Of a DNA stretch of 64,000 nucleotides, positions 10,672-46,994 are shown in pieces. Position numbers and translations under genes: made by a program. Below the pieces are notes generated by a model. It saw only the letters and a list, made by a program, of their open reading frames with translations. It had not been told where the DNA came from and searched no databases. Origin of the DNA: Nitrospira tepida (lineage in GTDB: Bacteria; Nitrospirota; Nitrospiria; Nitrospirales; Nitrospiraceae). Location: the NCBI RefSeq assembly GCF_947241125.1, contig NZ_OX365700.1, positions 2,450,001 to 2,514,000 on the forward strand. Direction: 5' to 3'. Within the stretch, counting starts at the first letter, position 1. The number at the start of each line of letters is the position of its first letter.

Positions 10672-12258
10672 TTACATCACCGTCTCGTCCGGCACAGGTG
10701 CGCTTTGGCCCGCGCCCGGCATGGATCGACGTTTTGACGCAAACACGTCGTGAATATTCTGACGCTTGGCAGTGAATCTTGTCCGAGCCTCCGTGAACAG
10801 GCCTGCCAGCAGGAGCAAGTCCGACTGGGTCACGTTGTAGGTCCTCCACCCCTCGTCCAGCCTGGCCTGATCCCACTGGACCGGTCCCCGCGCGAACTCG
10901 GCGACGGCTTCAAGCACCTCGGAGGTCCAGCCTTTCCGACGGGCGGCTTCCAACAGCGTCCGGCCCTCGGCTCCGAACTTGCGTTCGACGGCTGTTGCAA
11001 AAAAGGTCTGCACCTGCGAATCGGGACTCTTCATCATGGCCGATTGAAACTGGATCAGGCTTTTGATCACGCGGTTGGCTTCCGTCGTTCCCTCCGGCGG
11101 CAACACTTCGGCCTCGCTGAGAGTCGCCAACACGGCCATGACGCTGCCGACGTGCGCGGGCGAAGCCTTCTGACTGGTCTTGGTTCCTGGTCCGTCGCGC
11201 GGCGGTACGAATACCTCATTCGCGTTGCTGAACGACCCGCCGGGCTTCGGTCCTCCGGCGATCACAAAGATTCGGTCCCCCACGACGGCAGAGCCCAACC
11301 CGTGACGGCCGGTCGGCATCGGCGCCATCGTCTGCCACTTGTCGGAGCCAGGCTGGTAGGCTTCCGTGGTTGTGAACGTTCCAGCCGGAGCTTCGCCTCC
11401 GAAGACATAGATCCGGCCGGCCAGGACCGCCGCCGTGATCCCGCTCCGGGCGGTCGGGAGATCGGCGCGCCTGGTCCAACGGTCCGCTTCGGGATCATAT
11501 TGGTGGACCAGCGCCACGTTTCGGCTGTAGCTGCCGTTCAACCTGCCGCCGATCACATACACAAAACGGCCGTCGGTGGCAGCCGCCAGATGATCGCGCG
11601 GATCGGGCAGGGGGGCCTTTGTGGCCCATCGATCGGCTTGGGGATCGTACTCCTCGACGGCCGGCACGTTAATGTCGCCGTTATAGCCCCCGATCGCCAG
11701 AATGCGTCCGTTGACGACGGCCAAGGCTAGAGCGCCGCGGGGAGTGGGCATCGGTGTGCCTTCGGACCAACGATCTTCCTGTGGGTCATACCGGTAAAGC
11801 GAGGCTACCGGCTTCCAGACGGACAGGCCCGAGCGCGTGTAGCCGCCGACAACGTAGAGATGCCGGCCGACCGCCGCCAAACCAGCATGGTGCAACCCCA
11901 CCGGCAACGGCGCCTTGGACGTCCAGCGATCGGTTTGCGGGTCGTAGACCTCGACCTTCTCGCTGATGCTCAGATTCAACAGGTTGCCCAGCGCGGGAGC
12001 TTCAAAGCCGCCCACGACGTAGATCCGCCCATCCAGGGCAGCGGCTGCGACCTCGGTCCGTTCAGTCGGAGCGGGGGCTGCAGTGGTCCAGGTGCCGGAA
12101 TCCGGCAGGGGACTGTCGGCTCGACCGATGGAACAGGATGCAAACGACAAGAAAATGAGGGCGAGGAAGCAGGCGGCCGGTTGGCGCAGCCGATGGAACC
12201 AAGAAAGGATGGTCCGTCGAAGGGGCGCGGATCTCGGCAAGCGCGGCGTGGTTGACAT
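10672..12258 (-). CDS. Kelch-repeat exported protein
   Basis: About 528 residues. A membrane-targeting segment (ACFLALIFLSFASC, residues 29-42) precedes about six Kelch repeats (residues 60-350) with the double-glycine signature, for example RIYVVGGFE, HLYVVGGYT, RILAIGGYN, FVYVIGGRL and RIYVFGGEA. These form a six-bladed beta-propeller. The C-terminal 170 residues are alpha-helical and unrecognised. The FASC sequence resembles a weak lipobox. An earlier in-frame Met at 12300 is possible. Role is probably extracytoplasmic binding; no partner is evident nearby. Confidence 0.75.
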   Translation of the reverse strand: MSTTPRLPRSAPLRRTILSWFHRLRQPAACFLALIFLSFASCSIGRADSPLPDSGTWTTAAPAPTERTEVAAAALDGRIYVVGGFEAPALGNLLNLSISEKVEVYDPQTDRWTSKAPLPVGLHHAGLAAVGRHLYVVGGYTRSGLSVWKPVASLYRYDPQEDRWSEGTPMPTPRGALALAVVNGRILAIGGYNGDINVPAVEEYDPQADRWATKAPLPDPRDHLAAATDGRFVYVIGGRLNGSYSRNVALVHQYDPEADRWTRRADLPTARSGITAAVLAGRIYVFGGEAPAGTFTTTEAYQPGSDKWQTMAPMPTGRHGLGSAVVGDRIFVIAGGPKPGGSFSNANEVFVPPRDGPGTKTSQKASPAHVGSVMAVLATLSEAEVLPPEGTTEANRVIKSLIQFQSAMMKSPDSQVQTFFATAVERKFGAEGRTLLEAARRKGWTSEVLEAVAEFARGPVQWDQARLDEGWRTYNVTQSDLLLLAGLFTEARTRFTAKRQNIHDVFASKRRSMPGAGQSAPVPDETVM

Positions 12259-19195: not shown

Positions 19196-19213
19196 TAACC
19201 CGCATTATTCATG
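19196..19213 (+). repeat. Left arm of split palindrome
   Basis: TAACCCGCATTATTCATG. Exact complement of 20539-20556 and 17/18 identical to the left arm of the intact palindrome at 42575. Confidence 0.85.
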
Positions 19214-19293
19214 GCGATTCGTGGCGAAATCGTGCAGTCGCCAGGCGAGACGGGCAAGCACAGCCGCGAAGGACCAAGCAACTGTCTTGAATG

Positions 19294-20553
<1,260 letters not shown>

Positions 20554-20556
<3 letters not shown>

Positions 20557-33364: not shown

Positions 33365-33856
33365 CTAGTCCTTATCCAGGTTCCAATTGGTGATATCGGC
33401 ATTGGGCCCCTCGCCGCCCACTTCGCCGTCGGTCCCCAGGGAAATGATCTCGTAGTCCCCGCGCGTGCTCGGGCTGATGTATTTGTAAGGGTTGCCCCAG
33501 GGATCTTCCGGCACCTTCTGCAGGTAACCGCCGAGCTTCCACTTTTTGGGAACGACTCCGGTGGTCGGTTTTTCGACCAGCGCCTTGAGGTTCTGCTCGG
33601 TCGAAGGGTAGACCCCGTTGTCCAGCTTGTAGAGCTGAAGCGCCGCCTCGATGTTGCGGATCTGTACCTTCGCCGCCGTGCGCTTGGCCTCATCGGTCCG
33701 CCCCATGATCCGGGGCACCACCAACGCCGCCAGGATGGCGAGAATCGCCACGACCACCATGATCTCGATGAACGTGAAGCCGGCCGCACGGCCGATCCGC
33801 CAGCCCATCATCCACCGCTGCCCGCCCATTCGCACCCTCATCCGCCGCCTGACCAT
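33365..33856 (-). CDS. gspG: Type II secretion major pseudopilin GspG
   Basis: 163 residues. Prepilin motif AGFTFIEIMVVVAILAILAA (Phe in place of the usual Leu) with Glu5 after a 25-residue basic leader. The major pseudopilin signature DPWGNPYKYISPSTRGDYEI near the C-terminus identifies GspG and includes calcium-site residues. The ATG at 33856 is preceded by GAGGTGA; the first 20 residues of the longer frame are not leader-like. It ends 8 bases before gspH begins. Confidence 0.92.
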   Translation of the reverse strand: MVRRRMRVRMGGQRWMMGWRIGRAAGFTFIEIMVVVAILAILAALVVPRIMGRTDEAKRTAAKVQIRNIEAALQLYKLDNGVYPSTEQNLKALVEKPTTGVVPKKWKLGGYLQKVPEDPWGNPYKYISPSTRGDYEIISLGTDGEVGGEGPNADITNWNLDKD

Positions 33857-33863
33857 TGTCACC

Positions 33864-35096
33864 TCACCGGACCATTTGTCCCATTTCGAAGATTGGCAAA
33901 AGAATCGCCACCACAATAAATAAGACGATCACGCCCATGCACAAGATCATGATCGGCTCGAGGAGCGCGGTCGCCCGGGCCACCACCCGGTCCACTTCGC
34001 CGTCGTAAATGCCGGCGATCCGCTTGAGCATCTCCTCCATCTCGCCGCTTTTTTCCCCGACGGCGACCATGTGGGTCACCAGCGGCGGAAATTCCCCGCT
34101 CCGTTTCAGGGGCACCGCGATGCTTTCCCCCTCGCGGATGTTCTGGCGGGCCTCTTCCACGGCCGCCTCCAGCACGCGGTTGTTCATCACGCGCCGTGAC
34201 ACGTCGAGGGCATCGAGCAACTGTACACCGCTGGACAGCATGGTGGCCAGCGTGCTGCTGAGCCGGGAGATGGCGACCTTCCTCGCGATCTCGCCGATCA
34301 GCGGCAGCTTCAGCATCAACCGATGCATCCGGTATTGTCCGTTTGACGTGCGGACATAGCGGCGCAGGCCATACAGGGTCGCGCCGAGACCGATCAACAG
34401 CACATGCCAATAGCGGGACAACAGGTCGCTGGCGCGCATCAGCACGACCGTGGGCCAGGGTAGCGCCTGCCCGAGGTCCGTAAAGACGGCGGTGATCTTG
34501 GGAATCGCAAACGTCATGAGGAGAAACAGGACGCCGAGTCCGACGACCAGCATGACCACCGGATACATCAGCGCGTTGGTCACCTTGGATTTCAAGGCCT
34601 GCTGCTTCTCAAGAAACTCCGACAGGCGAAACAGGATTTGGTCCAAGGCCCCGCTGGCCTCCCCCGCCCGCACCATCTGCGTGTAAATCTGCCCGAACTC
34701 CCGCGGGTATTCGCCCAGGGCGGCGCTCAGGGCCTTGCCGGCCCGCACCTGTTCCCGGATATCCGCAAAGAGGCTTTGCACGGATTTTTTCTCCACCTGA
34801 TCGACGAGAATGCCCAGGGCATCGACCAGTGGCAGGCCGGCGACGAGCAACGTGGCCAGTTGCCGCGTGGCGAGCGCGAGGTCGGTCGGGGAGAGCGAAC
34901 GGGGGCGCGCGCCGTGCGACGGATGCCCGGCCGCGTGGCCCGCGTCCAAGCCAGAGGCCCGCGTTTCGCGCAACTCGGTCGGATAGACCCCGCCTTGGCG
35001 CAGCTTGAGCCGAGCCCCACGGAGGCTCTCCGCGTCAATGATCCCGGCCGCCGTGCCGCCGTCCGCTCTGAGGCCCTTGTAGGCATAGACCGGCAT
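33864..35096 (-). CDS. gspF: Type II secretion inner-membrane platform protein GspF
   Basis: 410 residues, polytopic: two homologous T2SSF domains (about 75-190 and 280-400), each followed by transmembrane helices, in a GspF/PilC fold. Signature segments: LATRQLATLLVAGLPLVDAL and SRLSSTLATMLSSGVQLLDAL. GspF is the central platform that transmits ATPase work to the pseudopilus. Lies 7 bases upstream of gspG. Confidence 0.93.
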   Translation of the reverse strand: MPVYAYKGLRADGGTAAGIIDAESLRGARLKLRQGGVYPTELRETRASGLDAGHAAGHPSHGARPRSLSPTDLALATRQLATLLVAGLPLVDALGILVDQVEKKSVQSLFADIREQVRAGKALSAALGEYPREFGQIYTQMVRAGEASGALDQILFRLSEFLEKQQALKSKVTNALMYPVVMLVVGLGVLFLLMTFAIPKITAVFTDLGQALPWPTVVLMRASDLLSRYWHVLLIGLGATLYGLRRYVRTSNGQYRMHRLMLKLPLIGEIARKVAISRLSSTLATMLSSGVQLLDALDVSRRVMNNRVLEAAVEEARQNIREGESIAVPLKRSGEFPPLVTHMVAVGEKSGEMEEMLKRIAGIYDGEVDRVVARATALLEPIMILCMGVIVLFIVVAILLPIFEMGQMVR

Positions 35097-35278: not shown

Positions 35279-36994
35279 CTAGATTTCCACTTCCTGCTGG
35301 GTGATCCGCATCACCTCTTCCGTCGTCGTGACGCCCTTGACGACCTTGGCAGCTCCGTCGAGCTTCAAGGGAATCATTCCCTTCCCCATGGCCGCCTCCC
35401 GAATTCGAGAGGCATCGGCCTTGGCGCCGATCAAGCGACGAATCTCGTCGTCCATCACCAACAGCTCGTAGACGCCGGTCCGTCCCCGGTAGCCGGTATT
35501 GCCGCATGACGGGCAGCCGACCCCGCGATACAGCATCGGATGGCCCTTGGCCGGATTGATCCCGAGCCGCGCCAATTCCTCATCGCTGGGCTCGTAGGGG
35601 CGCCGGCAGTCCGGACAGATCACGCGCGCGAGCCGCTGGGCCAGCACCGCCACTACCGATGACGCGACCAAGAAAGGTTCGATCCCCATGTCGATCAATC
35701 TGGTAGCCGCGCTGGCCGCATCGTTGGTATGGAGCGTGGAGAACACCAAGTGGCCGGTCAGCGAGGCGTGGATGGCGATTTCGGCCGTCTCCAAATCGCG
35801 GATTTCCCCGATCATGATCACGTCCGGGTCCTGCCGGAGAATCGACCGCAGGCCGGCCGCGAAGGTCAGATTGATCTTGGGATTGACCTGCATCTGGCCG
35901 ATGCCCTGAAGCTGATACTCGACGGGATCTTCGATGGTGATGATGTTCTTGTCCGGCGCATTGATCTGGCTCAAGGCTCCGTAGAGCGTCGTGGTCTTCC
36001 CGCTGCCGGTCGGCCCCGTGACCAGAATGATGCCGTGGGTCAGGTGAATCAGTTGCTGCATGATGGTCAACTGATCCTGTGAAAAGCCGATCTCGGACAG
36101 GTTGAGCAGCTTGTTTTCCTTCTGGAGCAACCGCAGCACAACCCGTTCACCATGGGAAGTCGGCAACACCGAGACTCGGATATCGACATCCTTCCCTGCG
36201 GTCCGAATGCCGAACCGTCCGTCCTGGGGCAGCCGCTTCTCGGCGATGTTCAGCCCCGCCATGATTTTGAGCCTGGCGGTGATGCTCGACTGGAGATGCT
36301 TGGGAGGGGTCAGCACGGGATAGAGCACCCCGTCGATTCGATAGCGGATGACCAGGCCCCGCTCGAAGGATTCGACGTGGATATCGCTTGCCCGGCGTTT
36401 GACCGACTCAAAGAGGATCGAGTTGACCAACCGGATGATCGGCGCCTCGTCCGTGGCGTCCAGCAAGTCTTTCGGTTCTTCCAACTCGTGGGCCAGCTTG
36501 TCCAGATTGCTTTCGGCGACCAGATCCTCCATGACCGATTCGGCCGCGGGAGCCGCCGCGCGGTCATACACTTGATTCAGGGTCGACAGGAGCACGATTG
36601 GCGTGGTAATGACGGGCTTCACCGGTTTCCCCAGCAACAAGCGCAAGTCGTCGAGGGCCTCGACTTGGAGCGGATCGGCTGTGGCTACGACGACGCCGTC
36701 GTCCTCCTCCCGCAAGGGGAGAACTTTGAATCGCCGGGCAAAACCGATCGGTACCTTGTTGATGAGGTCGCCGTTTACCAACGTGGCATCCAAGAAGGGG
36801 ACCCAGGGGAGGTCCAACTGCTGCGCGAGCGCCTGGAGAACTTCCTCTTCCTTCATCGTTCTGTTCTTGACCAGCAACTCGCCCAAGCGTACCCTGCGAG
36901 CCCGCTGCTGCGTGAGCGCGTCTTCAAGGACGGGATCGGGGAGGTGAAATTTTTCACGCAAGACCCTCCCGAGGAGTGAGAGTCCGTAGGCCAC
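35279..36994 (-). CDS. gspE: Type II secretion ATPase GspE
   Basis: 571 residues. N-terminal MshEN-type domain (RVRLGELLVKNRTMKEEEVL), then the secretion ATPase core: Walker A GPTGSGKTT, Asp box ITIEDPVEYQL, Walker B VIMIGEIRDLETAEIA and His box GHLVFSTLHTNDA. The four-cysteine metal motif CPDC...CPSC follows (near 460-510). It powers pseudopilus assembly through GspL and GspF. GTG 36994 after AAAGGTG is preferred over TTG 37036. A 182-base gap separates it from gspF. Confidence 0.93.
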   Translation of the reverse strand: MAYGLSLLGRVLREKFHLPDPVLEDALTQQRARRVRLGELLVKNRTMKEEEVLQALAQQLDLPWVPFLDATLVNGDLINKVPIGFARRFKVLPLREEDDGVVVATADPLQVEALDDLRLLLGKPVKPVITTPIVLLSTLNQVYDRAAAPAAESVMEDLVAESNLDKLAHELEEPKDLLDATDEAPIIRLVNSILFESVKRRASDIHVESFERGLVIRYRIDGVLYPVLTPPKHLQSSITARLKIMAGLNIAEKRLPQDGRFGIRTAGKDVDIRVSVLPTSHGERVVLRLLQKENKLLNLSEIGFSQDQLTIMQQLIHLTHGIILVTGPTGSGKTTTLYGALSQINAPDKNIITIEDPVEYQLQGIGQMQVNPKINLTFAAGLRSILRQDPDVIMIGEIRDLETAEIAIHASLTGHLVFSTLHTNDAASAATRLIDMGIEPFLVASSVVAVLAQRLARVICPDCRRPYEPSDEELARLGINPAKGHPMLYRGVGCPSCGNTGYRGRTGVYELLVMDDEIRRLIGAKADASRIREAAMGKGMIPLKLDGAAKVVKGVTTTEEVMRITQQEVEI

Positions 36995-37428
36995 CAACGC
37001 ACCTTTTCTTATCGACGAAATCGCACGGGCCGGCAACCGCGGGCTCTGCTTCTCCAGGCGGGGAATACCGACCGGGATTGCTGCCGAAGTACCTTATCCG
37101 AAAGAGCAGTACCCAAGCAAGTTCCGCGCCGGGTTAGCTAGAGGCCGAGGGATCAAGGGAAAAGGCGATGATTCAGGTCTCTATCCTGAACTTCACCTGA
37201 ACTCATGAAGGAATAGTAATACAGTCGAGAATTCACTGACCAGGCAATTGAGAAAAGGGGCGGTCGTCGCTTGCCTGAGGACGAGGGACTGTCGCCGGCC
37301 TTAGCTCTTTCGTATAGATGATTTGAGCTGGGCTCATTGGTAACGTTCGGCACTCACTCTGATCAATAGTCCTGAAGACCGTCTCTGAAAAGCCGGTCGA
37401 TCCCTCGCATACGCTGAGCCATGACCCG
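36995..37428. other. Divergent intergenic region, gspE and S8 protease
   Basis: 434 bases without a supported gene (apart from the possible 14-codon GspE extension). It must hold promoters for both directions. The region is less GC-rich than its surroundings (a CTATCCTGAACTTCACCTGAA-like AT-richer zone near 37180-37230). I see no definite -35/-10 pair. Confidence 0.4.
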
Positions 37429-39063
37429 ATGATGCAACCTTTCTTCCATGGACTCGGCGTGCCGGTCGTTGGTGCGGCACTCTATCTGCTCCTCGCCGGC
37501 TGTTCGGCAGGGGAGGACGCAAACCCGGCCACCACGCAAACGGCGTCGGGTGGATCGACCGTGGGCGGGCCGGTCGCCGTCATCGACGATCCGCTGTTCT
37601 CTCAACAGTGGCATCTCCAAAATACCGGCCAGGGCGGCGGCACGGTCGGGGAAGATGCGCGGGTCGTCGGCGCGTGGAATCAGGACATCAGCGGCCGCGG
37701 AGTCCGGATCGCCGTGGTGGACGACGGGCTGGAGATCGGTCATGAAGATCTCGCTCCCAATGTGATTTCCGGGCAGAGCCACAATTATCTGACCCATGGC
37801 TCCGATCCCACGCCGGTGAGCACCGGGACCTGTAGAGAAGCCGGAGGGTCGGCGGACTGTCACGGCACGGCAGTGGCGGGGGTGGCCGCGGCCTTTGCGA
37901 ACAGGGCCGGAGGCCGAGGAGTCTCTCCCTATGCGAATCTGGTCGGATACAACCTGCTCGCAAGCGGGGTCATCAGCCCGGATAGTCTGGAAGCCGACGC
38001 CATGACGAGAAATGCGGCCGGCGTGTGGATCTCGAACAATAGTTGGGGCGCGCCGGATGACGGGCGCCTGCATCCCAGCGGTCCACTCTGGAAAGCGGGT
38101 GTGCTGGCCGGTTTGTCCGGCGGTCGAAACGGGCTGGGCACCATCTATGTCTGGGCCGGCGGAAACGGCGGTCCGCGGAGAGGCGACAATTCGAATTACG
38201 AAGGTTATGCCAATTTTCGCGGCGTGATGGCGGTGTGCGCGGTCAACGCGGCCGGGCAACAACCGCCCTATTCGGATCCCGGCGCCAACCTCTGGGTCTG
38301 TGCTCCATCCAATACGGTCGGGCCCGGGTTTGCGTTGCCCGGCATCACGACCACGGACCGGTCCGGTTCCCAAGGGTACAATATCTCCGGATCGGGCGGT
38401 GATCCGGTCGATCCCAACTATACGACCCAGTTCGGCGGGACGTCCGCCGCCACTGCCGTGGTTTCCGGAGTTGCCGCGCTCATGCTCCAGGCGAATCCGC
38501 ATTTGGGATGGCGTGACGTGCGACAGGTGTTGGCGGAAACGGCCAGGCAGAACGATCCCGGCGACTCGGACTGGATGATCAACGGGGCCGGATTTCACGT
38601 GAATCACAAGTACGGGTTTGGCACGGTCGATGCCGAGGCCGCCGTCACCAGGGCCCGCACCTGGACGAACCTCGGCCCGCAGCGCACCTTTTCACGCACC
38701 CTCACGCCGTCGTTGGCACTCGCCGACGGCGGGACCGCCACGAATACGGTCGCGATCGCTTCGAGCGGGATCGCCAGAATCGAATGGATTGAGATTGAGG
38801 TGACGCTCAATCACGCCAACGACGAGGAGCTGGAAATCGTCCTCCGCAATGAAACCACGGGAACCACGAGCGTCCTGGCCGAGCCTCGCACCTGTTCGGG
38901 AAGCGGCGTCGATCTCTGCGGCGACTACAACGCGTGGATCTTCGGCAGCGCGCGCCATCTCGGGGAGGGTGTGGACGGCAATTGGACGTTGCTGATTCGA
39001 GACTCGAGTCCGGGCCTGACAGGGACGCTGGTCTCCTGGAAGCTGACCTTTTACGGGACGTGA
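37429..39063 (+). CDS. Kexin-type S8 serine protease, lipoprotein, without propeptide
   Basis: 544 residues. A lipoprotein signal ends in LLAGCS (Cys25). The catalytic domain begins almost at once with DDPLFSQQWHLQNTG, the usual start of a mature S8 domain. Catalytic residues: Asp98 (AVVDDGLEIGHEDL), His145 (CHGTAVAG), oxyanion Asn245 (AGGNGG) and Ser339 (GGTSAATAVVSG). The last 125 residues are a proprotein-convertase P domain (GNWTLLIRDSSPGLTGTL). No N-terminal inhibitor propeptide is present; a propeptide-like lipoprotein is encoded immediately downstream. Inserted in the T2SS cluster, so a secretion substrate or surface protease. Confidence 0.9.
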   Translation: MMQPFFHGLGVPVVGAALYLLLAGCSAGEDANPATTQTASGGSTVGGPVAVIDDPLFSQQWHLQNTGQGGGTVGEDARVVGAWNQDISGRGVRIAVVDDGLEIGHEDLAPNVISGQSHNYLTHGSDPTPVSTGTCREAGGSADCHGTAVAGVAAAFANRAGGRGVSPYANLVGYNLLASGVISPDSLEADAMTRNAAGVWISNNSWGAPDDGRLHPSGPLWKAGVLAGLSGGRNGLGTIYVWAGGNGGPRRGDNSNYEGYANFRGVMAVCAVNAAGQQPPYSDPGANLWVCAPSNTVGPGFALPGITTTDRSGSQGYNISGSGGDPVDPNYTTQFGGTSAATAVVSGVAALMLQANPHLGWRDVRQVLAETARQNDPGDSDWMINGAGFHVNHKYGFGTVDAEAAVTRARTWTNLGPQRTFSRTLTPSLALADGGTATNTVAIASSGIARIEWIEIEVTLNHANDEELEIVLRNETTGTTSVLAEPRTCSGSGVDLCGDYNAWIFGSARHLGEGVDGNWTLLIRDSSPGLTGTLVSWKLTFYGT

Positions 39064-39078
39064 CGGGGAGTGGACCAC

Positions 39079-39708
39079 GTGGCAAGACACACGGCTCCAT
39101 TGATGGTTCTGGCATTTGTCACGATCGCAAGTTGCGCCGGCATGGAATGGATCGACGGTCCTCCGCAGGCCCATTCCCAGGAGCCGGCCCAAGGCCGTTG
39201 GGGGACGTCCTTCATCTGGTATGACGGGACAAACGAACGGCGGGTCTGGCTCGACGCTGAACAGGTGGCGGAATTGGCTCCCGATCAAGGTTCCGCGACC
39301 ACCCTGCCCCTTGGCCATGTCCTTCCTCACAGCCCCCGCGGTCTCCGGCTCTGGGAGGTCGAAAAGGGGGTGACTCCTGATCGGTTGGTGAAGGAACTCG
39401 GCTCCGGAAGTGGGAGGGCCTCATTCTCGCCGGTGCTTCGGGATGCCCCGTCACCGGATAGTCCAATGCGCCTGCTGCCGGGAAACGTGATCGTCGATCT
39501 CGAGCCATCCTGGTCCCAGGAGAAGGTGCAGGACTGGGCAGACAGGCATCAAGTGGAAGTGTTGGCCCGTCTACCAATCGGGACGAATATGGTGGTGATC
39601 AAGACCGCTCCGGGATTGGCCGCGTTGGAACTCGCGAACAAGCTGTACCGTTCCGGAGAGGTGCGGGCTGCCTTTCCGGACTGGTGGACGGAAAAGACGC
39701 TCAAGTAA
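39079..39708 (+). CDS. Lipoprotein resembling a stand-alone S8 protease propeptide
   Basis: 209 residues. Signal with lipobox TIASC. The C-terminal 75 residues (GNVIVDLEPSWSQEKVQDWA, VEVLARLPIGTNMVVIKTAP, LYRSGEVRAAFPDWW) follow the pattern of the N-terminal propeptide that precedes the catalytic domain in kexin and fervidolysin-like proteases: a ferredoxin-like inhibitor fold ending in an A-x-P-(D/N) strand. The upstream protease lacks this domain, and the genes are 15 bases apart. It probably acts in trans as folding chaperone or inhibitor (inference). GTG 39079 follows GGGGAG. Confidence 0.65.
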   Translation: MARHTAPLMVLAFVTIASCAGMEWIDGPPQAHSQEPAQGRWGTSFIWYDGTNERRVWLDAEQVAELAPDQGSATTLPLGHVLPHSPRGLRLWEVEKGVTPDRLVKELGSGSGRASFSPVLRDAPSPDSPMRLLPGNVIVDLEPSWSQEKVQDWADRHQVEVLARLPIGTNMVVIKTAPGLAALELANKLYRSGEVRAAFPDWWTEKTLK

Positions 39709-39728
39709 CAGGTTTCCATCCAAATTCT

Positions 39729-40259
39729 TCAGGTCTGCATCCACCCTGTCAGCAGCAGGTACCCACCGTTGTAGTACATATGCAGCAATGCCAGCGGGTA
39801 CAGGCTGCCGAGCCGTTCCCGGAGAAAGCCGAACGCCAGAGAGACGACGAAGATGCCTCCAACCCAGAGAAGCGGATGGGTGGGGAGGTGAGCCGAGGCG
39901 AAGGCGACGCTGGCAACCACATTGGCCAACGTGAGCGGCCCGAAGAGAAGGCGGCGGCCGGTTTCTTCCAGCAGAATCCCCTGGAGGACGCCGCGAAAGA
40001 AAACTTCTTCACAAAGCGGCTGCCACAGGACGATCGACAGCACAACCAGCGAGTCGCTGCCGGTCCCTCTCTGCGGCGAGACGGCGCCGGCAACGGACAG
40101 GACGATCCAATATCCGATCGCGGCGAGGACTGCTCCCACAAAATAGGAATCCTTGCTCCATCCGGGCCGATAAATGAGGCCGCAGGTTTCCGCAACGTTG
40201 CGCCAGGCCTCAAGCCAACTTTTCCCGATCGGATGATCGGAGCAGGCGGATTTCAGCAT
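39729..40259 (-). CDS. CPBP glutamic intramembrane protease, MrtJ-like sorting enzyme
   Basis: 176 residues with about five hydrophobic helices. All CPBP (Abi/Rce1-like) motifs are present: EExxxR as CEEVFFRG, FxxxH as FASAHL and HxxxN as HMYYN. Rce1-type enzymes cleave membrane-embedded substrates with Glu as catalytic base. The next gene encodes a protein with a JDVT-CTERM-like tail, and single-target CPBP proteases (MrtJ) accompany such tails in other bacteria, so a dedicated sorting role is inferred. It lies 30 bases downstream of its presumed substrate on the same strand. Confidence 0.75.
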   Translation of the reverse strand: MLKSACSDHPIGKSWLEAWRNVAETCGLIYRPGWSKDSYFVGAVLAAIGYWIVLSVAGAVSPQRGTGSDSLVVLSIVLWQPLCEEVFFRGVLQGILLEETGRRLLFGPLTLANVVASVAFASAHLPTHPLLWVGGIFVVSLAFGFLRERLGSLYPLALLHMYYNGGYLLLTGWMQT

Positions 40260-40289
40260 GGAATCGATCCTTTTCCAGCCTGGACCATG

Positions 40290-42380
40290 TCAGTACCGTC
40301 TCCGCCGGTGTCGCCAGATCAGATAGCCGATCGATGCGGCCACCAGCAGGGGTAACAGAGGATCGAATGGTGATGAGGGATTCAATGCACATCCGCCGCC
40401 ATCATCACCGCCGGTGCCCGAAGGAGTTGGTGCAGGCGGTGGGGGCGGCGGTGGCGGGATCGTGTTGAACGTCGCCGTCACAGTCGCGTCGGTGGAGACC
40501 GTGCAGGTCCCGGTGCCTGAACAGCCTCCTCCTGTCCATCCGGCGAAGGTCGAGCCGGAAGCCGCTGTGGCGGTGAGGACGACCGAGGTCCCGTTGCCGA
40601 ACACAGCTTCGCAGGTCGAACCGCAATCAATCCCGTCCGGAGCGGAAACCACGGTGCCCGCTCCGCTGCCACTCTTCGCGACCGTGAGGTTGAAGATGCC
40701 GAACTTGGTACCGGCCCACCAGGTGCCCCACCGCCCATTCCCATCGACCGTGCCGGATCCAACCGGTTGCTCGGCATATTCCTGGATGGTCCAGAACGTA
40801 CGATCATCGTCAGGATCGACCGTTGTCGCGCTATAGTCGCCCCAACGGTTCCTCCCTGCTCCGAACGTTTTATAGTAGGGCCCCAACCCTTCCTTGAGGA
40901 GTTCGACCGGCTGCATCGAGCCTGGCGGGTCTCCCGTTTCTCTGGCGGTGTAAGCGGCCCCGGCATACATCGCGGGAGACGATTCGCTGAAGCCGATCAT
41001 GACATGGTTGTCCTTGTTGACCCCGATCGACGGATAGAAGAAGGACATGACGTTGTCGCCGATCCGCCCCTCCTGCACCGGTGCCCCTGCCTCTGTGAGC
41101 GAGGCTTCGGCAGGGTCGATCTCATACCACGCGATCTCTACCCGCTGAAAATCAGCACTGCCGAGGTGCTGAACGGTCCACAGACGGCCGTTCCGGAAGA
41201 CCGCATTCTGGAGTCCCTGTCCATGGACTTCTAAGTTCGGAACCCCTCCCAACTGACGCGCCGAGGGGGCAAATAGCTGCTGATTCACGGCAATGAAGCC
41301 CAGATCTTCATACATCGGGTCCGGCGCGAACCGGACGCGGCCAATGCGGAGCGCATTTGGTCCCGGCCCACCGGCAATCAACCATTTCCCGGAGACTACG
41401 TACTCAAACTCAGAATTCCCAAACACGTGGGCCGGTTGGGATGACCCGCCTAGCAGTGATGTCCTGAACTCCGTAAATTGCATAATCGAAGAATTTTGCA
41501 GCAGCGGCTGCTTGGGAATGACCCAGAGTTTCCTGTTTGAGCCGCCACCGATCATATTGGCCGTCACATAGTAGTTCCGGGCGTCGAGTCCTAGTCCAGG
41601 ATAGTCCGCCCATTCGCTGAACTGGGTGTCGTTGAAGCGGTCGGCATCGATGGCATAGAGAAACCAGTCACCGGTCGGATCGGAGGTGGCGGACACACCG
41701 ATCAGTATCCAGGACCAGGGCGGCTCGCGTCCGCCGATGGAGATCGCCACGAATCGTTCCGCATATTGATCGTAGAGCACCTTGGGATCGAAGACATCAT
41801 TGGCCGGTTCCTGGATCCCCGTGCCGAGCGAGGACCAGAAGGTCCTGAGGGTCACTTGGGTCAGCAAGGTCCCGGTCGCTTTTTCAAAAAAGCCGACTCC
41901 ATTGTTCAGGATTTCCATGAGATGATCGCGACCGACGGCCCCCTGGGTGTCGGGAGGGATCCATCCCGTATCAATGAGGCCTGGGAAACTTCTGTTGAGC
42001 GGGGGAGCCGCGGGGGCCTGCAATCTGGCAGAACGTTCACTTGGTTGAGATGGTTGGATCAACAGATTGCTGTCGCGATCGGGGCCTCCCGGCTTTTTTT
42101 TTACGTCAGGGAAGGGTTTGTTTGGGGCTTCTTCATGGTGGGGAGCCGCTCGCTGGATCTGACGGGGAGGCGCCGACGCCCGCTCCCGCTTCTCCATTTC
42201 CTGAAGCCGATCGGTCGCATGGGGAGCCGCCACCGACTTGGTGACGCCCTTGACCTGCTGTTCTTCGGCCGCCATTGCGACATGTGGCCCGATGAGCACG
42301 ACCGGCAAGAGAGCGAGGAGAAGCACGAGTCGCCGATACACCCAATCCCTCTGGGAATGGGATTCATTCCAGTTCCGCAT
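40290..42380 (-). CDS. Secreted beta-propeller protein with JDVT-CTERM-like sorting tail
   Basis: 696 residues. Signal peptide (1-37), low-complexity polar linker (38-125), then a large domain rich in W/G strands (130-550) that resembles exported six-bladed propellers or sialidase-like folds. An InlB-type B-repeat (about 560-635; GSGAGTVVSAPDGIDCGSTC, FAGWTGGGCSG) with paired cysteines follows, then a proline linker. The tail is tripartite: GGGCALNPSSPFDPLLPL, a hydrophobic helix (LVAASIGYLIW) and RHRRRRY. This matches the JDVT-CTERM plan, with a GGGC(A/S) box and a DP-LP helix start. The adjacent CPBP protease would cleave near the cysteine. Catalytic function of the main domain unknown. Confidence 0.78.
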   Translation of the reverse strand: MRNWNESHSQRDWVYRRLVLLLALLPVVLIGPHVAMAAEEQQVKGVTKSVAAPHATDRLQEMEKRERASAPPRQIQRAAPHHEEAPNKPFPDVKKKPGGPDRDSNLLIQPSQPSERSARLQAPAAPPLNRSFPGLIDTGWIPPDTQGAVGRDHLMEILNNGVGFFEKATGTLLTQVTLRTFWSSLGTGIQEPANDVFDPKVLYDQYAERFVAISIGGREPPWSWILIGVSATSDPTGDWFLYAIDADRFNDTQFSEWADYPGLGLDARNYYVTANMIGGGSNRKLWVIPKQPLLQNSSIMQFTEFRTSLLGGSSQPAHVFGNSEFEYVVSGKWLIAGGPGPNALRIGRVRFAPDPMYEDLGFIAVNQQLFAPSARQLGGVPNLEVHGQGLQNAVFRNGRLWTVQHLGSADFQRVEIAWYEIDPAEASLTEAGAPVQEGRIGDNVMSFFYPSIGVNKDNHVMIGFSESSPAMYAGAAYTARETGDPPGSMQPVELLKEGLGPYYKTFGAGRNRWGDYSATTVDPDDDRTFWTIQEYAEQPVGSGTVDGNGRWGTWWAGTKFGIFNLTVAKSGSGAGTVVSAPDGIDCGSTCEAVFGNGTSVVLTATAASGSTFAGWTGGGCSGTGTCTVSTDATVTATFNTIPPPPPPPPAPTPSGTGGDDGGGCALNPSSPFDPLLPLLVAASIGYLIWRHRRRRY

Positions 42381-42574
42381 CGAGAATCCCTCCTTGGCGG
42401 AGTCTCACAGGATGGACGGACAGGTCCTCCAGGCTTGCGCTGTACCGGGGACGGAGGCACGCGGGCGCATCCTAGTATGACGTGGTGAAGATTGCAAGAA
42501 GTGGAACGGGATAAATGGTAGGACGAAATACGTGTATTTTTAAGCGATAGGGAATGGACGTATTTCGCGTCTCT

Positions 42575-42616
42575 TAACCCACATTATTCATGACGGTTCG
42601 TGAATAATGTGGGTTA
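42575..42616. repeat. Intact REP-like palindrome overlapping the gspD stop
   Basis: 42 bases: arms TAACCCACATTATTCATGA and TCGTGAATAATGTGGGTTA (one mismatch in 19) around a CGGT loop. The same arms, with one base changed, frame the IS110 element at 19196-20556. Bases 42614-42616, read on the minus strand, are the TAA stop of gspD. It has no T tract, so it looks like a repetitive extragenic palindrome rather than a simple terminator. Confidence 0.85.
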
Positions 42617-44227
42617 GGGCTGGGGAACGGGGGTTTCTGTCGGCTCCACTCCCTCCAGAGGGACATCGGCCGGCGGGGCGGTCTTCGGCATCAGTTGTTC
42701 GAGGATCTGACGCTGCGTGCCGGTCGGTTCGTCGATTCGGTTGAGCCGCTGAACGAGATTCGCCTCCTGCGCCTTGCGCTTGTTGAGTTCGATCATGTCG
42801 GCTTCATCGCGAACCAAATGAGGAGTCAAAAAGACGAGCAGGTTCAGTTTCTCCGACTGCTTGCTCTGAAAGCGGAACAGCCACCCGAGCCAAGGGATAT
42901 CGCCCAGGAACGGGATCTTTCGTTCATTCATCGTCACGTTGTCGCGGACCAGCCCGCCGACCACGATTGTTTGCCCGTCCTTCGCCACGGTCGTGGTCTC
43001 CATGGCCCGTTTGGTGGTGGTCGGGCCCACCGGGACGGAGGCCGTGCCTGTTCCGATCGTCTGCGCTACGCTTTCCGCGATCGCCGTGATCTCCTGCTTG
43101 ACCTCAATGCGGATGAGGCCGTCGTCCAAGACTTGCGGCGTCATTTCCAAGGTCACGCCCACGTCCTTGCGCTCGATGGTCACCAACGTGCCCCCGGTGA
43201 TGCCTTGCGCCTGGCCGGTCGGAAAAGGCCGGTTCTCGCCGACCACGATCTTGGCCTTCTGGTTGTCGGAGGCCAACACTTGCGGCGTGGAGAGGATATT
43301 TGTGTCGGTCATCGTCATCAGAAGTTGCAGAAAGACTCGAACATTGAGGGTGTCCAGAATCGTCAACGTATTGCCCGAGGTGGCGCCGCTCAAAATCTGT
43401 GCGATCGTCGCGATATCTTCGGGCGTGCGGTTCAGGCCGAACAGCCCTTGAACCGATCCGGACTTGCCCGCACCGACAGCCTGCACAGGATCTGTGCCGA
43501 TCTGACGAAGCCGGTCCACGCCGATTTCAAGGATCACGGCTTCCACGAACACCTGGTTGCGTTTCGTATCCAGCCCGCGGATCACGCTTTCCAGCATCGT
43601 ATAGGCGTTCTTGGTCGAACTGATTACGATCGAATTGGTGGCCTTGTCGGCAAACACCTGCACCGGCGCTTCGAACTCGGTGAGCGGTCGGATCGGCGGC
43701 CGCCCGCCCGGTTGGGTGCTGACCGGTTGAGCCGCTGCCCGCGCGACCAAGTTCGTGAGGAGGGCCGCCACATCGGTCGCGTTGGCATGTCTGAGCTTAT
43801 AGACGAACACCGCGCGCTCCGGAGGCGCCTCGGCGGTTTGTACGATCTCCACCACATTTCCTTTCGGAATGGCCGTCAGACGATTCACCTCCAAAGCGGC
43901 GAGGAACATATGGTAGGCCTGATCCACCGTGACCTTCGTCGGCGAAAAGATCGTAATCTTGCCGCTGTTTTTCTTGGCGGTTTCATCGACGACGATGTTC
44001 TTGCCGGTCAGCTCGCTGATGAAACGAATGACGACGGGCAAGTCCACTTCGTTGAAATCGAGCGTGACGCGCCCCCCCTGCCCATTGGGTTTCGGCGCCG
44101 TCACCTGCGCCCATGACGGATTCAAGGTCTGCATCAAACCGATAAGCAGGACCGAGATAACAACCAGCCGACCGTGTCGCTTCCAGAGATTGAACATCGG
44201 TTGGTGAAGATGGGGATACGGGGTCAC
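42614..44227 (-). CDS. gspD: Type II secretion outer-membrane secretin GspD (short form)
   Basis: 537 residues. Signal peptide (to about 40), then N0 domain (TLDFNEVDLPVVIRFISEL) and one N1-type KH domain (VFVYKLRHANATDVAALLTN). The secretin core has VEAVILEI, the amphipathic lip segment and the signature VPFLGDIPWLGWLFR-like KIPFLGDIPWLGWLF. Compared with typical GspD it has fewer N domains (N2/N3 region abbreviated). Proline-rich C-terminus with no S-domain. GTG 44227 follows GAGGG, five bases after the gspC stop. It forms the outer-membrane channel. Confidence 0.9.
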   Translation of the reverse strand: MTPYPHLHQPMFNLWKRHGRLVVISVLLIGLMQTLNPSWAQVTAPKPNGQGGRVTLDFNEVDLPVVIRFISELTGKNIVVDETAKKNSGKITIFSPTKVTVDQAYHMFLAALEVNRLTAIPKGNVVEIVQTAEAPPERAVFVYKLRHANATDVAALLTNLVARAAAQPVSTQPGGRPPIRPLTEFEAPVQVFADKATNSIVISSTKNAYTMLESVIRGLDTKRNQVFVEAVILEIGVDRLRQIGTDPVQAVGAGKSGSVQGLFGLNRTPEDIATIAQILSGATSGNTLTILDTLNVRVFLQLLMTMTDTNILSTPQVLASDNQKAKIVVGENRPFPTGQAQGITGGTLVTIERKDVGVTLEMTPQVLDDGLIRIEVKQEITAIAESVAQTIGTGTASVPVGPTTTKRAMETTTVAKDGQTIVVGGLVRDNVTMNERKIPFLGDIPWLGWLFRFQSKQSEKLNLLVFLTPHLVRDEADMIELNKRKAQEANLVQRLNRIDEPTGTQRQILEQLMPKTAPPADVPLEGVEPTETPVPQP

Positions 44228-44232
44228 GACGC

Positions 44233-45123
44233 TTACCCTCGGATATCGTAGGTCAAGGTGGTGCGCTGGCTGTTCCGAAGCACGTCTACCGCGACAGTCC
44301 GTTCGTTTCTTAATTGTTGAAAAAGGCCCAGGGCCATGCCCGGATCGCGCAGTTCGACGCCGTTGATCCGTTGCAGCACATCCCCGGCCTGGAGGCCGAT
44401 CTTCTCGAAGAAACTGCCCTTCATGATGAAGTCCATGCGGAACCCGTCCACCTTTCCCTCATTCATGTGAGGAACGGCCCGCGCCTGCGTCATCAGCTTC
44501 GGCACGTCCGATAACATCTGCGACAGTTCGGCTCGATCGACGGACCGCCGGAGCGGTCCGGGCATGGAGGCCGGGGCCACGACCGCGCCGGCCGGAACCA
44601 CGGCCGGGGCCGCCTGCTGGAGAATATCCAAGAACAACTCTTCCTGGAGCGGCCCTTGCGTCAGCAGAATGGACTCCTTTCGGATCTCGCTCACCGTGCC
44701 GACCCCTTCCACCTGGTCGCCCACGCGATACGCGGCCTGACGGCGGCCGGTCAGATGCTCCACGACGGCCAAGGATTGCGCGCCGTCTCCGACGACGGTG
44801 CCGAGCAACCGGATTTTCTTCACCGCGTCCAGAGCGGCAAGAACGGCGGGCTGTCCCATCGGCCCTCCCATGACCGGGCTGCCAGAAGCGGCCTGCATCG
44901 ACGGTGGAGGCGGTGCAAACAGGCGGCTGGTTTCGATCTCGCGGGCCAGTTGACGCAGATCCTGAACATGACCGGCCGCGGCAGGCCGGACGATGGAGCT
45001 TTCCGTCCCCTCCAACGGCGGCAACAGAGCCTGGGCGACAAAAGCGTTGAGCGTATGGGCAACCAGAAAGGCGGCAATCGCGACAAAGGCGAGCACGACA
45101 GCCTGGCGGCTTAAGTTTTTCAT
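44233..45123 (-). CDS. gspC: Type II secretion protein GspC
   Basis: 296 residues. One N-terminal transmembrane helix (residues 9-30), then the HR domain (KIRLLGTVVGDGAQSLAVVE, YRVGDQVEGVGTVSEI) that contacts the secretin. A C-terminal PDZ domain follows (MKGSFFEKIGLQAGDVLQRI). GspC links the inner platform to GspD. The ATG at 45123 starts just before the helix; earlier in-frame codons are unsupported. First gene of the minus-strand cluster. Confidence 0.88.
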   Translation of the reverse strand: MKNLSRQAVVLAFVAIAAFLVAHTLNAFVAQALLPPLEGTESSIVRPAAAGHVQDLRQLAREIETSRLFAPPPPSMQAASGSPVMGGPMGQPAVLAALDAVKKIRLLGTVVGDGAQSLAVVEHLTGRRQAAYRVGDQVEGVGTVSEIRKESILLTQGPLQEELFLDILQQAAPAVVPAGAVVAPASMPGPLRRSVDRAELSQMLSDVPKLMTQARAVPHMNEGKVDGFRMDFIMKGSFFEKIGLQAGDVLQRINGVELRDPGMALGLFQQLRNERTVAVDVLRNSQRTTLTYDIRG

Positions 45124-45536
45124 AGACCGAAGGATCAGATACCGGGCGCGCAGCCTGTCATGGTAGCGTGATGATCTAGCAAATAGCAAACCAAATACCG
45201 GAATTCACGATTTCAGACGGAGCGAGACGCGGTCATGCGATGAGGGTCATCCGTCGGGGCGCTTTTATCGCCAGGGGCAAGGACAATCAGAGCAAGGGCG
45301 GCCACCGGAACAGGAGCGGCGGCGTGCTCCGGGCCGATCTTCCAAACACGATTCCTCTGCGCAACTGTCGTTCTGAAGGGTTCCGGATACATGGTCATCG
45401 GACGCCATGATTGCGAATTCCGTTTGGCTCCGTCTGCTATGCTTCCCTGTTCGGAATTGTAAATCGCTTTCCTTCACGGACGGCTATGCTAGGTTGAATT
45501 CGATCAAGCCATTCGCATCAACCGGACAGGCGGATC
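45124..45536. other. Divergent intergenic region, gspC and exeA-like gene
   Basis: 413 bases with no supported gene. Promoters for the secretion cluster and for the divergent ATPase gene should lie here; TATGCT at 45485-45490 may be a -10 box for the latter but lacks a well-spaced -35. A small open frame (45213-45398, minus) has no ribosome binding site and is not called. Confidence 0.4.
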
Positions 45537-46994
45537 ATGTACGAAGCGTGTTACGGGCTGACGACCAACCCCTTTGCCCTCCTGCCGGACCCTGACTTTT
45601 TCTGGGCCGGCCCGCAACAGCAGAAGGCCTGGTCGATGCTGGAACGAGGACTGCTGAACGGCGCGGGCTTCGTGGTCGTGACCGGCGAACCGGGCACCGG
45701 CAAAACCACGTTGCTCCGCAAGTTCCTCGCGGCGCATGCGGACCGGTTCGTCGCCGGCACGATTTCCGTCGGCCCCAACAATACCGCCGAACTGCTTCCT
45801 TGGATTCTGCTCGCCTTCGGCCTCGACCGGCAGGCCAGCGACCGAGTCGAATCGTTCCAGACGTTGTCCGGTTTCCTGCGGGATCAAATGGCGCGGGGTC
45901 GGCGGGCGCTGCTGGTCGTGGATGAAGCTCAGAACCTGACGGCCCCGCTGATGGAAGAGCTGCGCCTGTTGTCGAATCTGAACGACGGCCAGACCGCGCA
46001 GCTTCAGATCCTGCTCTTCGGACAGCCGGACCTTCGCAGCCTGCTCCAACGTCCGGATGCCAGGCACTTTGCACAACGTATCGCGGTGGCCCATCACCTG
46101 ACGCCCCTCTCCGTTGAAGACACCTCGCAGTACATTCAGCACCGTCTGACCATCGGCGGCGGCCGGCGCAAGCTGTTCACCGACCGGGCCTGCGCCGTGA
46201 TCTGCCGTATGGCCGGCGGAATCCCTCGGGTCGTGAACCAAGTCTGCGATGCCGCGCTGAGCCGGGCGTCTCTCAAGCCAGCCGCTTACGTGACGAGCCG
46301 CCTCCTGATCGAGACAGGCCCCGATCTCATTCACGGCGGCTTGCTCCCCGGACTGAGCGAGGCGGATCCGACCGTCGCCACGGATGACGACGGGCTTTCG
46401 GACGAACTGCCGGAGACTGACGGAGTGCCGTCGCCACAGAACAATGAACCCACGGCGGCGGAACGAGCAGAATCGCTGGCTGAACCGCCGGCCGACTCAC
46501 CGGCGCCCGAAGCGACTCACACCCATCCGGCGCTCGAAGATCCGCAAGCCCTGTATGACGAAGGGATGGTCTTGAAGAAAGAGGGACGCTATCAGGAGGC
46601 CATGGACCGGTTTCAACGTCTGACCGGAGATCCCAGCCTGGCGTTGCAGGCCTATGCGCAAATCGGGATCTGTCTACGCGCCTCAGGACGATTGCCGGAG
46701 GCCGTCGTGGCCTTCCGCAAGGCCCTGGGCACGCAGGCCGCGCAATTGGACCATCGGACGATCACGCTCCATTATCTTCTGGGCCGTACGCTTGAAGATC
46801 TCGAACGCTGGTCGGAAGCCACCTCGGCCTATCGCCGGACTCAACGTCTCGACCCCAACTACAAAGATACCGGCGCGAGGCTGGAACACATCAAGCAGCA
46901 AGCGGAAGCGGCTGCTCGCAGAAAGGCCGCGGAGGGGTCCTGGATGGGAGATGCCGTGCACACCATTCAACGCGTGCTGGGCGGGAAATCGTAA
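45537..46994 (+). CDS. ExeA/GspA-like AAA+ ATPase with TPR domain
   Basis: 485 residues. The AAA+ domain (1-265) starts with MYEACYGLTTNPFALLPDP, typical of ExeA/MSHA-type ATPases, with Walker A GEPGTGKTT, Walker B LLVVDEAQNL and sensor 1 LQILLFGQPDLR. A polar linker (280-345) leads to a TPR array (345-455; ALYDEGMVLKKEGRYQEAMD). ExeA with ExeB remodels peptidoglycan for secretin assembly in Aeromonas; here the peptidoglycan-binding domain is replaced by TPRs. Divergent from gspC, so a secretion accessory role is inferred. Confidence 0.82.
   Translation: MYEACYGLTTNPFALLPDPDFFWAGPQQQKAWSMLERGLLNGAGFVVVTGEPGTGKTTLLRKFLAAHADRFVAGTISVGPNNTAELLPWILLAFGLDRQASDRVESFQTLSGFLRDQMARGRRALLVVDEAQNLTAPLMEELRLLSNLNDGQTAQLQILLFGQPDLRSLLQRPDARHFAQRIAVAHHLTPLSVEDTSQYIQHRLTIGGGRRKLFTDRACAVICRMAGGIPRVVNQVCDAALSRASLKPAAYVTSRLLIETGPDLIHGGLLPGLSEADPTVATDDDGLSDELPETDGVPSPQNNEPTAAERAESLAEPPADSPAPEATHTHPALEDPQALYDEGMVLKKEGRYQEAMDRFQRLTGDPSLALQAYAQIGICLRASGRLPEAVVAFRKALGTQAAQLDHRTITLHYLLGRTLEDLERWSEATSAYRRTQRLDPNYKDTGARLEHIKQQAEAAARRKAAEGSWMGDAVHTIQRVLGGKS

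Follow-up and report, generated by a model that had tools for sequence, protein, structure and literature searches.

A predicted MrtJ/JDVT-CTERM protease-substrate pair in a type II secretion gene cluster of Nitrospira tepida

Introduction

The MrtJ/JDVT-CTERM system (Haft; NCBIfam models NF033192 for the protease and NF033191 for the tail) is described as a sorting enzyme encoded beside a single target, a two-gene neighbourhood that is reported to occur sporadically in beta- and gammaproteobacteria (PMC11980579). Both members are known from sequence models, and the literature searched contained no published test of MrtJ itself. In the MYXO-CTERM/MrtX system of Myxococcus xanthus, which shares a CPBP protease, an invariant cysteine in the tail and surface proteins that depend on the type II secretion system (T2SS), MrtX cleaves the MYXO-CTERM proteins and removes their helix, the conserved Cys is required, and processing comes before the T2SS-dependent display at the surface; lipidation in that organism is predicted and not proven (PMC11980579). 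MYXO-CTERM has dozens of targets, whereas in the genome described here there is one per protease. The GlyGly-CTERM/rhombosortase (RssP) system of Vibrio cholerae likewise combines a tripartite tail on secreted proteases with a dedicated intramembrane protease and, as found here for MrtJ, is associated with genomes encoding T2SS (PMC3237569, PMC13393428). However, rhombosortase is a rhomboid serine protease, of an enzyme family unrelated to MrtJ, and the GlyGly-CTERM tail has no Cys. The CFI-box-CTERM is also a C-terminal domain with a Cys, but it constitutes a different tail family and is not the tail of the protein studied here.

In this study, we report on a predicted pair of this kind in a window of 64,000 nucleotides from Nitrospira tepida (the whole stretch of DNA analysed; coordinates refer to it unless a contig or locus is named). 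MrtJ/JDVT-CTERM is already described in proteobacteria, and the pair in the window belongs to this known kind. With respect to the system as described there, the differences are the phylum (Nitrospirota), the existence of two pairs in one genome, the location of one of these pairs within a gsp cluster, and a substrate core without any family match. That location, the occurrence of MrtJ in about 9% of the Nitrospirota genomes sampled and its strict nesting within T2SS genomes are what is added here.

Organization of the locus

The pair consists of mrtJ (39729..40259, minus strand), encoding a CPBP-family glutamic intramembrane protease of 176 aa, and of a gene for a 696-aa protein (40290..42380, minus strand), identified from its ORF, its NF033191 tail and a domain search. 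Both ORFs lie at the positions given in the original prediction, on the same strand and with 30 bp between them. On one side they are flanked by gspD (42614..44227, minus strand), whose best NCBIfam match, TIGR02517, scored 332.8 bits, just under the cut-off of 351, and which also carried the Secretin Pfam domain, and by gspC (44233..45189, minus strand; NF041515, 178.8 bits, cut-off 150). On the other side were found the ATPase gene gspE (35279..37036; TIGR02533, 716 bits, cut-off 630), gspF (33864..35096; TIGR02120, 466 bits, cut-off 424) and the major pseudopilin gene gspG (33365..33916; TIGR01710, 177.6 bits, cut-off 89), all of them on the minus strand. The placement of the pair between gspE and gspD was thus predicted correctly; nevertheless, two genes of the opposite strand in the same interval had been overlooked. 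They encode an S8 subtilase (37429..39063, plus strand; Peptidase_S8 E 3.4e-41, P_proprotein 8.2e-13) and a separate prodomain of the fervidolysin N-pro type (39070..39708, plus strand; PF22148, 22.0 bits, cut-off 21), and they stand between the pair and gspE.

The start of the substrate gene is separated from gspD by a gap of 233 bp that opens with a strong REP-like palindrome (42575..42616). This palindrome overlaps the gspD stop codon and separates gspCD from the pair; it is an inverted repeat with 95% complementarity, a folding energy of −34.7 kcal/mol and a z-score of −6.8. Its half-site belongs to a dispersed family found 33 times in the genome and 0 times in the reversed control. Given the gap, the palindrome and the opposite-strand genes, there is no sequence sign that the pair is transcribed together with the gsp operon.

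The S8 protease has a lipobox-type signal (LLAGC), a P-domain and the catalytic D/H/S motifs, and it lacks a prodomain of its own. Its combination with a separately encoded prodomain was observed both in the window (37429-39708) and in the gsp cluster of a second genus (L151:11042-13514). As the arrangement is kept in that second cluster, a protease and its folding aid would be encoded in trans; probably the S8 gene is a cargo gene of the T2SS, and the prodomain probably acts in trans on the protease.

The predicted protease and its substrate

The 176-aa protein scored 84.2 bits against the MrtJ model NF033192, its best NCBIfam match, a score not far over the cut-off of 75. This model outscored MrtC, MrtX, MrtP and MrtS, and the next-best Mrt model was Mrt_core, with 50.8 bits for a cut-off of 100. 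The possibility of an MrtX-type myxosortase was ruled out, since the score against NF040593 was 37 bits for a cut-off of 180. In agreement with the original prediction, the three CPBP motifs EExxxR, FxxxH and HxxxN were present with all their catalytic residues (E84, E85 and R89; F120 and H124; H160 and N164, respectively). Among 11 aligned relatives E85, R89, H124, H160 and N164 were invariant, while E84 and F120 were not. An AlphaFold2 model built from 11 sequences was confident and mostly helical (mean pLDDT 86). The Foldseek search of this model against the PDB, meant as a comparison with solved Rce1/CPBP structures, gave no significant match, and the PDB search with the sequence gave chance-level matches only. 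In the MrtJ tree, from which a motif filter had dropped 14 rows, the window protein was the most divergent of the set, with a branch length of 2 and an unsure position. A further protein of 500-550 residues with a CPBP core (G000:C1:1522702; about 45 bits to MrtJ) was observed in nearly every family member.

The 696-aa protein begins with a signal peptide (hydrophobic h-region at about residues 18-36, followed by AMA-A) and ends in the tail TGGDDGGGCALNPSSPFDPLLPLLVAASIGYLIWRHRRRRY, which scored 47.7 bits (E 1e-12) against the JDVT-CTERM model NF033191, for a cut-off of 27. The match covers aa 660-693 of 696 (40299..40403, minus strand), that is, the extreme C-terminus, and in the genome-level search the tail was recovered at G000:C1:2490302-2490403 with 53.4 bits. 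The tripartite tail that had been predicted for a secreted protein was therefore confirmed: a Gly/Cys motif (GGGC at 661-664, with the invariant Cys664), a hydrophobic stretch and an Arg cluster (RHRRRRY at the end), with a helix at 675-695 in an AF2 model of low overall quality. Between both ends, the core (about 120-560) had no Pfam match and is followed by a single divergent InlB-like Flg_new_2 repeat (590-641) and a Pro-rich linker leading to the tail. The PDB sequence search with this protein gave no match, its single-sequence fold (pLDDT 37) was not used, and a DNA pattern for tails, GGNGGNGGNTGYGC, was uninformative (23 sites vs. 27 in the reversed control). Relatives of the core were distant (28-40% identity over parts) and occurred in 5 of the 197 other genomes searched. 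One of them, in G014 (L099:36-2468), ends not in JDVT-CTERM but in a tail of the CFI-box-CTERM family (90 bits, cut-off 40), which indicates that core and tail recombine.

Model searches, on which the genome-wide statements rest, revealed a second MrtJ/JDVT pair at C1:1002346-1003015, 1.5 Mb from the pair in the window and with no gsp genes alongside. The genome therefore has two targets and two proteases. A recent origin of the window pair by duplication of the second one was rejected, as the proteases are 37% identical, the substrates share the repeat and the tail only, and no sister relation appeared in the tree, in which the window branch is long and of unsure place.

Distribution of the pair and its relation to type II secretion

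In a sample of 396 Nitrospirota genomes, and using the model cut-offs (75 bits for MrtJ and 27 bits for JDVT-CTERM), MrtJ was found in 36 genomes and the tail in 30; by comparing the two genome lists by reading, all 30 were among the 36. A tail without MrtJ in relatives, the finding that would have contradicted the pairing, was looked for and did not appear in any of the 30 tail genomes. The six MrtJ genomes with no tail over the cut-off included Nitrospira sp. BO4 (G422), and one genome without MrtJ (G333) had a sub-threshold tail match with an internal stop. Of 54 MrtJ-like ORFs scanned, 38 had a JDVT-tail gene directly upstream on the same strand, at 300 bp or less or overlapping. In addition, the distances among tails and among MrtJ proteins correlated (Mantel r 0.86, n = 35 pairs, 0/2000 permutations), with host phylogeny not controlled and with one tail of the set (L223) cut at the wrong Cys. 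With both curated models passed by adjacent genes, and tails found only where MrtJ occurs, the original reading of the two genes as a cognate MrtJ/JDVT-CTERM pair is upheld by sequence criteria, and the co-occurrence indicates that the pairing is real.

The ratio of MrtJ to tails was usually 1:1, but the family is not bound to it, since in a Salinisphaerales genome one MrtJ locus and seven tails over the cut-off were found. Tandem JDVT/MrtJ pairs were observed at L227 and L234 (G116 and G082), where a stop or frameshift interrupts one MrtJ copy and the adjoining tail gene is intact, hinting that one MrtJ can serve several tails. The Nitrospirota JDVT proteins examined were mostly S8 subtilases with InlB-type or PKD/Ig linkers, and three were glucose/sorbosone dehydrogenase-like; by its core, the window substrate is an exception among them.

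With regard to secretion, GspF was over the cut-off in all 36 MrtJ genomes of the phylum, compared with 88 of the 360 others (Fisher p 1.3e-20). It must be noted that this p-value overstates the evidence, because 26 of the 36 genomes, which span 11 genera and 5 families, belong to one genus, and that the co-occurrence is partly phylogenetic; a rough calculation by genus (11 of 11, with a generous base rate of 97/169 taken as the upper bound) gives about 0.002. In Gammaproteobacteria, GspF was likewise over the cut-off in 8 of 8 MrtJ genomes. The MrtJ genomes found include that of Marinobacter segnicrescens, a MrtJ/JDVT host that can be grown in culture. The converse does not hold, as many T2SS genomes lack MrtJ. 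A comparable statement on association with T2SS has been made for GlyGly-CTERM/rhombosortase (PMC3237569).

The gspD-gspE junction

It had been proposed that insertion between gspE and gspD ties the sorting system to T2SS and that the gene order reflects one functional unit, for which conservation of the pair within the gsp loci of relatives would be expected. Around the other MrtJ loci (those of relatives G022 and G024, 40 stretches around Nitrospirota MrtJ genes and the gammaproteobacterial loci), homologues of GspC, D, E, F or G were found in 0 of about 50, within the flanks examined. Since all MrtJ genomes of the sample have GspF and these loci have no gsp neighbours, the tie to T2SS stands by the nested distribution and not by gene order.

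The junction itself was compared at four loci (window 37037-42613, L151, L152 and L162). In the window the slot holds the S8 gene, the prodomain and the JDVT pair. In relative G020 (82% identity in GspD) the gsp cluster is the same, and its slot likewise contains an S8 protease (64.9% identical to that of the window) and an adjacent prodomain (41% identity), but the pair is absent. In G030 gspD and gspE are contiguous, and in G002 the junction is occupied by a 298-aa possible outer-membrane protein. Since the slot differs among these relatives, the pair is most simply explained as having been inserted later, and specifically in this lineage, into a cargo slot of variable content, and not as part of a conserved operon. 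No clear GC shift was seen as a sign of recent transfer of the pair. In G024, the JDVT/MrtJ pair lies between transposase genes (L072:430-888 and 11368-11826) of inverted orientation, in a composite-transposon-like arrangement; the translated ends and the length of both genes are the same.

Proposed mechanism

Our preferred reading, which we consider likely, is that of a cognate pair acting upstream of T2SS and placed in this gsp cluster by lineage-specific insertion. The 696-aa protein would be exported by Sec, and its C-terminal helix would keep it anchored in the inner membrane. Cys664 would then be lipidated, probably and by analogy with myxosortase, before MrtJ cuts next to this residue and removes the helix and the Arg-rich end. 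The processed protein would finally be moved to the surface by T2SS, keeping its lipid anchor because Cys664 is probably lipidated before cleavage. Cleavage of a JDVT tail by MrtJ is proposed here from the behaviour of MrtX.

Two other readings accept the pair and differ in the fate of its substrate. Once the protein has been exported by T2SS, cleavage by MrtJ might release it to the medium, with no lasting lipid anchor (shedding and not display), which would suit the long Pro-rich linker that precedes the tail and the partial release of TraA and VesB in studied systems (PMC11980579). We regard this as improbable, given that none of the aligned JDVT tails inspected had lost the Cys and that the sister system uses its Cys for cleavage and surface anchoring (PMC11980579). 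Alternatively, both the placement and the co-occurrence with T2SS could be incidental, MrtJ trimming an inner-membrane or periplasmic protein that follows a route other than T2SS, and the pair having moved into a permissive intergenic spot. The absence of gsp genes near any other MrtJ locus examined, the REP-like palindrome and opposite-strand genes that part the pair from the gsp genes, and the inverted identical transposase genes around the G024 pair are in line with such a history; on the other hand, the restriction of MrtJ to T2SS genomes in the two phyla (36/36 and 8/8) and the nature of the substrates, which are typical secreted hydrolases, make it rather unlikely. The original prediction of a dedicated, co-regulated secretion unit formed by the gsp cluster and the pair agrees with the position between gspD and gspE and with the strand shared with gspC and gspD. 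It appears highly improbable, however, as the arrangement was not conserved in any relative, G020 has the cluster without the pair, 233 bp with a strong hairpin follow gspD, and two opposite-strand genes precede gspE.

Beyond the preferred mechanism of Sec export, MrtJ cleavage and T2SS-dependent display, we would suggest, tentatively and at somewhat less than even chances, that MrtJ/JDVT-CTERM is an obligate T2SS accessory, in which a folded protein, parked in the inner membrane by its tail, waits for MrtJ to pass it on to the T2SS, and that the gspD-gspE junction of this lineage is a slot which repeatedly gains genes for cargo of the same T2SS. Tails were confined to genomes with MrtJ, and MrtJ to genomes with T2SS; this nesting, seen in two phyla, provides a quantitative reason to place the sorting system within T2SS-dependent surface display. 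Pairs of one protease and one substrate lend themselves, by their small size, to direct reconstitution, and they could be of use in the search for the acyltransferase that is expected, but still missing, in the myxosortase family.

Other features of the window

Divergently from gspC, at 45537-46994, we observed a gene for an AAA ATPase with TPRs that resembles the helper ATPases of the GspA/ExeA type and scored 241.6 bits against the XrtA/PEP-CTERM ATPase model (cut-off 324.5). The same REP-like palindrome as that at the gspD stop codon (AACCCGCATTATTCA...TGAATAATGCGGGTT) was found at 19197-20555, split by a transposase gene (19294-20541, minus strand) that was assigned by eye to the IS110 type, and it looks like this element targets the REP-like repeat.
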